64,000 bases of DNA. Origin: Bdellovibrio bacteriovorus HD100. Lineage in GTDB: Bacteria > Bdellovibrionota > Bdellovibrionia > Bdellovibrionales > Bdellovibrionaceae. Positions 12,849 to 43,120 of this stretch are shown one piece after another. A model generated the notes under the pieces. That model had not been told where the DNA came from. It did no database searches and saw only the letters and a program-made list of their open reading frames with translations. The DNA is taken from contig NC_005363.1 in NCBI RefSeq assembly GCF_000196175.1, forward strand, positions 3,472,001 through 3,536,000. The letters are read 5' to 3'. Each line of letters begins with the position of its first letter. Positions within the stretch are counted from its first letter, which is position 1. The position numbers and the translations under genes are program-made.

Positions 12849-12850
12849 CT

Positions 12851-12925
12851 AAAAGGTACCTGCTTACTTTTGCATAAGCATCGCGCTAGACGCACCGTTT
12901 ATGCAAAAGTAAGCAGGTACCTTTT
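12851..12925. repeat. Perfect 27-bp inverted repeat with AAAAGGTACC ends
   Basis: The arm at 12851-12877 (AAAAGGTACCTGCTTACTTT then TGCATAA) is exactly complementary to 12899-12925, with a 21-base loop between. One end lies 2 bases after the methyltransferase stop codon; the other abuts the ribosome-binding site of the next gene. There is no U-tract after the stem, so it is not a standard terminator. Related sequence occurs at 42192-42255 and 42328-42348, so this is a dispersed element. Its boundary position and symmetry fit a REP/MITE-like repeat or an mRNA-end structure. Confidence 0.85.
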
Positions 12926-12935
12926 GGGAGAAGCT

Positions 12936-34929: not shown

Positions 34930-35027
34930 GACGGCAAATTTAGCCCAAATAGGTATCCTAAGGGCACGAAAACTCTCAAGTTTTGGAAAACTTGCAGAGT
35001 TGTCTATAAAGAAGGCGGGATCTCGGT

Positions 35028-35365
35028 TTTGCTATAAGCCGGATTCTGTCCAAACTACCAGGTCCCATAATTTACCCGATAATCGTGGATGATCATTCCT
35101 CTGGGAGTGGCATTACTGACACCCTCAAGCGATCTTACCCGGTGACTACGGGCTGGCCGCCCTACTAGTGTCACCCTATTTGATCTTGCTCCGCGCAGAG
35201 TTTGGCTGTTTTCACTCCAGCAGCTCCCCAGACCCTCCCGTTCCCGGTGTCTGGCTCAATGCCCTGGACATTCTCTCTGTTCCACTGTTCCTTACATTAC
35301 TGTAGAGGGGCGTTACCCCTTGCGCTGCCATATGGAGTCCGGACTTTCCTCTCTAATTTCAGGAA
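35028..35365 (-). ncRNA. rnpB: RNase P RNA (class A)
   Basis: On the minus strand the transcript begins near 35365. It contains AGAGGAAAGTCCGGACTCC (5' strand of P4 and flanks; reverse complement at 35335-35353) and the bacterial GGTAAGATCG/GAGGGTGTC region. It ends in ACAGAATCCGGCTTATAGC (reverse complement at 35030-35048), the universal 3' P4 strand. The two P4 strands lie about 300 nucleotides apart, as expected for a compact class A RNA. RNase P matures the 5' ends of tRNAs. Boundaries are approximate. An AATAATACT -10-like sequence lies just upstream of the 5' end. Confidence 0.95.
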
Positions 35366-35499
35366 TTTAGAGTATTATTAGAGCAATCATCCGCAAAACC
35401 GTGGGGATTTCTAACACCGTCCAGCATTTCGTGCAAGAAGGTTTTCTTAATCCCGGTTTTATTTTACTTTCTAAGCATCGTTTACAAAAGGATTAAATC

Positions 35500-41568: not shown

Positions 41569-42189
41569 ATGTTCAAACTTCCAAATCTTCCCTACGCAAA
41601 AACCGGTATTGCTCCATTGTTCAACGAAGAACAAATGACTTACCACTACGACAAGCACCACAAAGCTTACATCGACAATCTGAACAAATTCATGGAAACA
41701 GATGCATCCCTGAAAGGGAAATCCCTGGAAGAGATCACTCTGACTTCCACGGGTGGCATCTTCAATAACGCCGCTCAGGCATGGAACCACACCTTCTTCT
41801 GGTTTGGTATGAGCCCAGCGGGTCAGGGTGGCCAGCCATCTGCAGAACTTTCTGCTGCGATCACTCGTGATTTCGGTTCTATGGATGAGTTGAAAGCCAA
41901 GTTCGTGGACGGCGGCGTAAAAACCTTCGGTTCCGGCTGGATCTGGTTGTGCATGGATGCTGCTGGCAAATTGAGCCTGGTATCCACTTCCAACGCAGCG
42001 GTTCCGTTCACTAACAACGGTCCAACTCCATTGTTGGTTGCTGACGTTTGGGAGCACGCTTACTACGTTGATTACAGAAATCTTCGCGCAAAATATCTTG
42101 AGACTTTCTGGGCGCAAGTAAACTGGAACTTCGTTTCCGAAAACTTCGCTTCCAAAAAAGTTCGCGACCTGACCAAGTCCATGACGTAA
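41569..42189 (+). CDS. sodB: Superoxide dismutase, Fe-type
   Basis: 206 residues with AGGAGG before the ATG. Metal ligands of the Fe/Mn family are visible: His in MTYHYDKHHKAYIDNL, His in AAQAWNHTFFWFGMSP, and DVWEHAYYVDYRN with the Asp and last His. GGIFNNAAQAWNH places a Gln at the outer-sphere position typical of FeSOD. The enzyme dismutates superoxide; with no signal peptide it is cytoplasmic. A 5-base-pair-like GGAGGCG leader and short AT-rich upstream region are seen. A mosaic copy of the AAAAGGTAC element and a strong terminator follow. Confidence 0.95.
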   Translation: MFKLPNLPYAKTGIAPLFNEEQMTYHYDKHHKAYIDNLNKFMETDASLKGKSLEEITLTSTGGIFNNAAQAWNHTFFWFGMSPAGQGGQPSAELSAAITRDFGSMDELKAKFVDGGVKTFGSGWIWLCMDAAGKLSLVSTSNAAVPFTNNGPTPLLVADVWEHAYYVDYRNLRAKYLETFWAQVNWNFVSENFASKKVRDLTKSMT

Positions 42190-42191
42190 CC

Positions 42192-42255
42192 AAAAGGTAC
42201 TCTGCGGCACCCTCCACAGGGGGGCCCACCGCAGTTTTGCATAAGCAGTGCGCCA
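42192..42255 (+). repeat. Mosaic copy of the AAAAGGTAC element after sodB
   Basis: AAAAGGTAC (42192-42200) is followed by a 34-base hairpin-forming block (CTGCGG at 42202-42207 pairs with CCGCAG at 42229-42234, with a further C-rich/G-rich stem inside), then TTTTGCATAAGCAGTGCGCC at 42235. The last part matches 18 of 21 bases of the same-position sequence in the 12851 element (TTTTGCATAAGCATCGCGCT then A). The block that differs replaces CTGCTTAC. It starts two bases after the sodB stop codon. Confidence 0.75.
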
Positions 42256-42265
42256 CAAAAACAAG

Positions 42266-42301
42266 AAAAGGAACTGCCTTCATCAGCAGTTCCTTTTTTT
42301 A
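42266..42301 (+). terminator. Terminator of sodB
   Basis: AAGGAACTGC (42268-42277) pairs with GCAGTTCCTT (42286-42295) around CTTCATCA, and the T-run continues to about 42301. An A-run precedes the stem, so it may also work weakly on the minus strand. Confidence 0.92.
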
Positions 42302-42327
42302 TGGCCAAAATGAAGCGACGCTTCGGA

Positions 42328-42348
42328 AAAAGTAAGCAGGTACCTTTT
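42328..42348 (-). repeat. Third AAAAGGTACC element, on the minus strand
   Basis: Reading the minus strand, AAAAGGTACCTGCTTACTTT follows directly and overlaps the TAA stop of the barrel-like gene (stop at 42347-42349). It equals the first 20 bases of the 12851 arm. Beyond it the sequence diverges into TCCGAAGCGTCGCTTCA, which contains its own palindrome GAAGCG-T-CGCTTC. Confidence 0.75.
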
Positions 42349-43120
42349 AGAGTTCGAAGAAGGTGGTGGAGAGCAGGAAGAGGGTGTCTTGGGTGTCGGG
42401 GGTATAGTAGACGCCGACTGAGGGGCGCGAGAACATTTCCTTCGGGCGAAGCTGGGACCAGGCCACACCGACTCCCGTGTTCATCTGCTCGTAAGGAGAC
42501 ATGCCCGCTTCACGCAGGTGTCCGTAAGCCAACGTGATCCATTCACGATCTTTAATCTGATACTGAATATCCAGGCCGTACTCGGCTTCACACTTCAGCG
42601 AATAAACAAAGACCAACCCGTTGGTGGAATCGATGTGCCCGCACACCTGAGTCATAAACGGCGACATCGTCACGTTTTCATTCCAGTCGGGACGATAGTT
42701 GAAACCCAGCTGGGTCGAACGCAAAACCAGGTCGGGTCTTTCGACAACCTTGCCCTCTTGTTTCACTTCGGATCTAAAGCGGGTTTCGGTGAATGAAGCC
42801 GCCCAGTCAAAGTTGTCGCCACGATAGAAATTTCCCTTCACGGTGTAATTGCGGCTGCCAGATGCGGTGGCATAGAACATCGGAACAGTCCCGATTTCCA
42901 GACGAGGAAAGATACCCATACTCAAAGCATTGGTCAGCATGTGGGAATTGACGTTGGCACCGCCAGCCCGCTGATAGCCGAACTGCCACTGCGGCAGGGT
43001 GCGGGCGGAGGTGCTGACCACGGGATTAAACACCACCCGTTTTTCAGGAACGACGTCGTCAAACCCCGCAAAGGATTGAACACTGAAGGCCAAAATGATG
43101 AATGAAATCAACGCGCGCAT
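42347..43120 (-). CDS. Exported beta-rich protein, probably an outer-membrane barrel
   Basis: 257 residues with a signal peptide (MRALISFIILAFSVQSFA). Strands alternate aromatic and small polar residues: WQFGYQRAGGANVNSHMLTNALSMGIFPRLEIGTVPMFYA, NYTVKGNFYRGDNFDWAASFTETRF, LGFNYRPDWNENVTMSPF, and the end LFLLSTTFFEL. It has two cysteines (VCGH and LKCEAEY). No family is recognised. The stop codon overlaps the AAAAGGTACC element. Confidence 0.65.
   Translation of the reverse strand: MRALISFIILAFSVQSFAGFDDVVPEKRVVFNPVVSTSARTLPQWQFGYQRAGGANVNSHMLTNALSMGIFPRLEIGTVPMFYATASGSRNYTVKGNFYRGDNFDWAASFTETRFRSEVKQEGKVVERPDLVLRSTQLGFNYRPDWNENVTMSPFMTQVCGHIDSTNGLVFVYSLKCEAEYGLDIQYQIKDREWITLAYGHLREAGMSPYEQMNTGVGVAWSQLRPKEMFSRPSVGVYYTPDTQDTLFLLSTTFFEL

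Follow-up and report, generated by a model that had tools for sequence, protein, structure and literature searches.

What kind of element keeps its two ends, changes its centre and lies on or just behind the stop codons of genes? This question is raised by the sequence downstream of sodB in Bdellovibrio bacteriovorus HD100, where two conserved boxes enclose a hairpin that replaces the bases found between the same boxes elsewhere. An earlier note, made from the letters of the window alone (i.e. the whole stretch of 64,000 nucleotides analysed, NC_005363.1, positions 3,472,001 to 3,536,000), had read the pattern as a mobile or RNA element undergoing evolution. It is very probable that the boxes are the ends of short non-autonomous mobile units working like REPs or REPINs and moved by a RAYT, an HUH transposase acting on single strands. 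This reading is based on a repeat family, its linkage to RAYT genes, empty sites in relatives, centres that differ between orthologous sites and covariation within the hairpin.

The units, hereafter A units, form a genome-wide repeat that reads AAAAGGTACC-centre-TTTT-NNNN-AAGC-NNYGCR and measures about 35 nt, or about 62 nt with a hairpin centre. Three centres are found: A1 (TGCTTA), carried by the majority of copies; A2, a 34-36-nt hairpin, which is the form after sodB and recurs at genome positions 1550282 and 3057754 as well as within a composite at 3108330; and A3 (AGGTAC), found at 483810 and near 2167476. The features of the window, in window coordinates, are the following.

41569-42189, + strand: sodB, Fe/Mn superoxide dismutase gene (Pfam Sod_Fe_N and Sod_Fe_C), stop codon TAA at 42187-42189
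42192-42200, + strand: 5' box (head) AAAAGGTAC of an A2-type unit, 2 nt past the sodB stop (sequence)
42201-42234, + strand: swapped centre of the A2-type unit after sodB, a 34-nt hairpin (sequence, folding, covariation)
42235-42254, + strand: 3' box (tail) TTTTGCATAAGCAGTGCGCC of the A2-type unit after sodB (sequence)
42263-42300, no strand given: terminator-like hairpin separating both units behind sodB (folding; occurs in relatives without units)
42315-42348, - strand: inverted A1-type unit AAAAGGTACCTGCTTACTTTTTCCGAAGCGTCGC, whose AA provides the end of the convergent gene's TAA stop
42347-43120, - strand: convergent gene, 257 aa, no Pfam family (sequence, Pfam search)
12851-12885, + strand: A1-type unit forming the left arm of a REPIN-like doublet, 2 nt past a TAA stop (sequence)
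12891-12925, - strand: A1-type unit forming the right arm of that doublet (sequence)

Re-read directly from the sequence, the box after sodB and its replaced 34-nt centre have the letters given in the earlier note. The hairpin is made of an outer stem (42202-42207/42229-42234, CTGCGG/CCGCAG) and an inner stem (CCCTCC/GGGGGG), and is followed by the tail TTTTGCATAAGCAGTGCGCC, which reads TTTTGCATAAGCATCGCGC in the 12851 copy. The units at 42192 and 42348 are oriented towards each other, with the terminator-like hairpin between them. The second one runs from 42348 down to 42315 and, as had been noticed, overlaps the stop codon of the convergent gene, its first AA (42348-42347) being the last two bases of TAA (42349-42347); the label "barrel-like" given to this gene is not confirmed by a Pfam search, which assigns its product to no family. 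The three reported copies of the box at gene ends are all present, but the window holds four units, since the 12851 copy is one arm of a doublet. This doublet (12851-12925) contains a perfect 27-nt inverted repeat (12851-12877/12899-12925) and, folded as 12849-12927, reaches -32.6 kcal/mol (z -10.7). Within the window, AAAAGGTAC occurs four times versus 0.31 expected, a count reached in 0 of 100 shuffles. The only Rfam match in the window is a gene for the class A RNA of bacterial RNase P (35019-35402, - strand).

At the scale of the genome (a single contig of 3,782,950 bases), the bare 9-mer AAAAGGTAC is not enriched (56 occurrences versus 131 for the reversed control), whereas the 14-mer AGTAAGCAGGTACC, one mismatch allowed, is found at 29 places versus none in the reversed control; this genome-wide check, suggested by the earlier note, excludes chance as the source of the longer form. 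An alignment of the 29 A1 units needs no gaps over its 35 columns and, with few exceptions, their tails read TTTT-(TCCG, GCAG, GCAT, GCTT or GCTG)-AARC-NNYGC(G/A). Centres and tails combine freely: this genome alone has five different tails behind the A1 centre and three behind the A2 centre. Five 75-bp inverted doublets of A units are present and are outnumbered by singles, tandems and composites. A sister family, B (AAAAGGTGCCTGG), reads AAAAGGTGCCTGGTGACTTTTTACACCTAC-NNYGC or AAAAGGTGCCTGGTTGTTTTTTCTGGC and has the head type GGTGCC instead of the GGTACC of A. The genome carries 29-30 copies of A1 and about 25 of B, and A1 is present in four closely related genomes out of 66. When the variants are folded, A2 does form a hairpin with a covarying stem, but the common A1 unit folds weakly alone (z of single units: 0.7 and -1.1 for A1, 0.0 for B, -2.3 for A3, -0.8 to -3.2 for A2), and a fold comparison of all unit types established no hairpin common to all of them. 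An Rfam search of the units gave sub-threshold hits only, and the hairpin unit has no match in the phage and plasmid collections searched.

A profile search reveals four Pfam Y1_Tnp genes in the genome. Two of them are intact RAYT-like genes, each located within inverted copies of its own unit type: RAYT-A (1866218-1866853) lies inside an 809-bp unit (1866161-1866970) whose ends are inverted A1 units, and RAYT-B (563163-563747) lies between two inverted B units and between two flagellin-like genes. Their products, 48% identical, match PF01797 (Y1_Tnp) with 36.1 and 26.9 bits (cut-off 23), and the top NCBIfam match of both is NF047646 REP_Tyr_transpos (E 2e-17 and 6e-19), with scores of 63.5 and 68.4 that do not reach its curated cut-off of 80 bits. 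Among PDB entries, RAYT-A is best matched by TnpArep (4er8, E 1e-6), the HxH and Y-x3-NP motifs are kept at 95% or more in 29 homologues, and pN/pS of the RAYT-like gene is 0.16 between this genome and a close relative (G005). The two other Y1_Tnp-like genes (962004-962213 and 437925-438173) are without clear cognate repeats; the latter adjoins an A1 doublet, does not reach the Pfam cut-off and lacks HxH where it would be expected.

The association extends to the family Bdellovibrionaceae, in which 47 of 66 genomes carry a RAYT homologue. Most of the 30 RAYT loci fetched have inverted ends opening with AGGTRC or a near form, behind which the centre varies, a T-run usually follows and a YGC-type tail is frequent; loci devoid of this head or of clear ends are L107, L109, L112, L119, L122 and L124, two of which are short contigs. 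In three other genomes (G004, G007 and G010), a different unit, AGGTGCCTGCTTCTTTTTTG, occurs at 36-45 places (two mismatches allowed) and at the ends of the RAYT gene, and its near matches number at most two in this genome and none in G005. Judging from these sequences, unit type and RAYT go together. The relatives G008 and G009 have 25-30 A1 copies, and no close RAYT-A homologue was found in them in the search of the 66 family genomes; in G008, a short unrelated sequence occupies the RAYT-A site.

The modularity of the units is best seen by comparing orthologous sites, orthology being judged by flank matches. At five gene ends, relatives carry different centres within the same boxes, and at two of these, the variable tail bases are identical. 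At sodB, A2 is present in this genome and in G005, an A3-like form in G023 and A1 on both sides in G009 (sodB 88% identical); in G008, the left side retains only a remnant and the right side is empty, and the more distant readable relatives have the terminator alone (eight loci without a located sodB frame were left out). The 2152483 site carries A1 here and A2 in G005 and G008, the tail TTTTGCTTAAGCAGTGCGC being common to this genome and G005. Conversely, 3057754 carries A2 here and A1 in G005 and G009, with an identical tail, GCAGAAGCATCGAG, here and in G005. At 1489112, A1 (here and in G009) is replaced by A2 in G005 and G008, and at 2673230, A1 (here, G005 and G008) is replaced by A2 in G009, with AAGCAGTGCG kept; at both sites, the variable tail bases are nearly identical. 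Furthermore, 3383004 and 3108330 show a composite (head, partial hairpin and full A1) in one genome and A1 alone in another, and such composites are possible intermediates. The proposal of the earlier note that the element is both mobile and modular is upheld by RAYT-like genes lying between inverted boxes, by empty sites in relatives, by free combination of centres and tails and by differing centres inside the same boxes; the refuting conditions named in that note, chance co-occurrence of the boxes or relatives lacking both with no junction, did not overturn it.

The A2 hairpin deserves separate attention. Across five genomes, A2 centres come in nine distinct versions, in which 97.2% of the cells are paired and 5 of the 12 pairs show double changes (9 cells); the covariation score is 0.322 versus 0.127 in shuffles (0/500) and at most 0.098 when slid, and the inner part is nearly invariant. 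This marks the hairpin as constrained. In G023 (L289, L294), it lies between boxes of the B type, with AGGTGCCT as the head and TCTGGC in the tail, and this centre is therefore a part able to fit between the boxes of two families. The hairpin could conceivably be a cassette that moves on its own level and is exchanged, by RAYT cleavage or template switching, into the head-tail slot of more than one REP family (that of A in this genome and of B in G023), a tentative idea with the balance somewhat against it. If true, REPs would evolve by cassette recombination, beyond mutation alongside their RAYT.

The units lie mainly outside genes, as judged from their position relative to long ORFs (crude calls). 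Their start falls between -2 and +4 nt from a same-strand stop codon for 16 of 29 A1, all four A2 and 10 of 19 B units, versus 2.0% expected from the possible placements in the intergenic DNA of the window, with crude ORF calls. The excess is at least 25-fold (binomial p <1e-6 per group, a generous value since units in doublets or tandems are not independent), and the exact -2 position, at which AA of the unit completes TAA, is used by eight A1, three A2 and nine B units. The term "gene-end element" used in the earlier note thus describes a frequent landing place, but a good part of the copies are located away from gene ends. Empty sites reveal insertion into A-tracts between the stop codon and the terminator: near sodB, the right-hand site of G008 reads CTCTAAAAAAAAAAGGAACTGC versus CTCTAAAA-unit-AAAAAAAGGAACTGC in this genome; at 2152483, G009 reads TAAAAACAAAAAGCCCC versus TAAAA-unit-AAAAGCCCC here; and the site of the G008 unit at 3549352 is a plain terminator tract in this genome. 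It is probably because of insertion into such A-tracts that units are found on or just behind stop codons and that AAAA precedes the head; we infer that AAAA may be the cleavage target. Three states are seen at one gene end: an A1 unit in G008, a related doublet (AAAAGGTACGGACTTACTTTTGGT, L278) in G009 and no unit in this genome.

Could the units instead be regulatory elements of the host, i.e. 3'-UTR RNA or terminator modules that act on the mRNA and whose link with RAYTs is incidental? Their strong excess on stop codons, the covarying hairpin, the many sites common to three or four relatives and the stalling of ribosomes reported for E. coli REPs near stop codons (PMC12306157) would all agree with it. 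However, the units are also the inverted ends of two RAYT units, with similar ones family-wide, close relatives have empty sites, many copies are away from gene ends and A1 is limited to four closely related genomes of 66, which makes this explanation quite improbable. The mobile and regulatory readings could nevertheless be compatible if some copies have been co-opted. As for a chance or low-complexity likeness of A- and T-tract gene ends, the absence of genome-wide enrichment of the bare 9-mer is its sole argument; it has practically no chance of being correct in the face of orthologous conservation and is ruled out by the 14-mer count (29 versus 0) and the perfect 27-nt inverted repeat.

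A closer competitor accepts mobility and denies any exchange of centres: A-tract gene ends would be hot spots at which whole units of different subtypes insert separately. One gene end with A1 in G008 and a different doublet, AAAAGGTACGGACTTAC, in G009 and the sodB tail, which differs between G009 and this genome, are in line with this scenario, which may hold for some sites. It fits poorly where tail letters are kept, namely under different centres at 2152483 (GCTTAAGCAGTGCG) and 3057754 (GCAGAAGCATCGAG), where they are identical, and at 1489112 and 2673230, where they are nearly so; moreover, the composites made of a head, a half-hairpin and A1 resemble intermediates. Globally, re-insertion appears rather unlikely to account for the centre differences.

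In the favoured reading of REP-like units moved by a RAYT, RAYT-A would move the A units, which would enter A-tracts lying past a stop codon and ahead of the terminator. The stretch from head to tail would then be free to change, with centres (TGCTTA, the 34-nt hairpin, AGGTAC) and tails (TCCG, GCAG or GCAT before AAGC) exchanged among copies. The most likely route of this exchange would be that, while a single strand or hairpin is replicated, a second unit serves as template through the short boxes common to both; RAYT cutting would be a possible alternative.

The closest known systems are the REP/RAYT associations, or REPtrons (PMC2817692, PMC6006769, PMC8266576), in which a Y1 HUH gene likewise lies between inverted copies of a scattered extragenic repeat (inverted REPs flank RAYT genes; PMC2817692), the repeat type pairs with the transposase and the HxH and Y-x3-NP motifs are present. 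The Bdellovibrio units differ by their head, GGT(A/G)C(C) instead of the canonical REP foot GT(A/G)G, which they lack, by the weak palindrome of the common unit, by about 30 copies versus usually more than 100, by centres interchangeable between fixed boxes and by the NCBIfam score under the cut-off. Because of this non-GT(A/G)G head, poor folding of lone units and low copy number, they are not filed as canonical REPs. Like REPINs (PMC3116915, PMC3686654), the five 75-bp doublets consist of two inverted units with a short spacer that form one long hairpin, but here doublets are rarer than singles, tandems and composites. With IS200/IS605 elements (IS608, ISDra2), the system shares a Y1_Tnp family transposase and insertion beside a short target without clear long duplication, which would fit single-strand insertion; unlike in these elements, the gene is few-copy and its ends are multi-copy. 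The E. coli REPs reported to stall ribosomes, located at most 15 nt from stop codons (cited in PMC12306157), similarly lie near the stop, but many Bdellovibrio units reach into the stop codon. According to PMC3733652, a stop codon may be furnished by the end of a REP.

No paper linking RAYTs or REPs to Bdellovibrio was found in the open-access papers searched, and Bdellovibrio is not named in PMC8266576, PMC3733652, PMC2817692, PMC6006769 or PMC12306157. The letters of the head matter for RAYT cleavage (PMC8266576). The guide model holds that they set the cleavage site, and RAYTs paired with GGT(A/G)C-headed repeats would be naturally suited to testing it. Orthologous units with different centres would provide before/after pairs for changes of REP shape. 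Since units sit on the stops of sodB and other host genes, whose mRNA they may affect, consequences for translation or mRNA ends would be measurable there.

Several additional observations concern the surroundings of the units. A longer second repeat, with CGACGTGCTNNNAGCACGCC- and GCCTTGCATCTGG-type parts, adjoins several of them (L011, L028, L071; flanks in G005, G008 and G009). The hairpin core GGCACCCTCCACAGGAGGGCCCACC is also found in a box-less GC-rich intergenic structure of G008 (2298168-2298188, L292) with no Rfam match. The segment between the inverted units at 3057591-3057754 (L019, L065), including the terminator, is inverted in G005 (L228), as if recombination had occurred between the units. 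Finally, exact AAAAGGTGCCTGG places are biased, 12 of the 15 in the first half of the genome being on the + strand and 8 of the 9 in the second half on the - strand, a bias that may reflect lagging-strand insertion or gene orientation.
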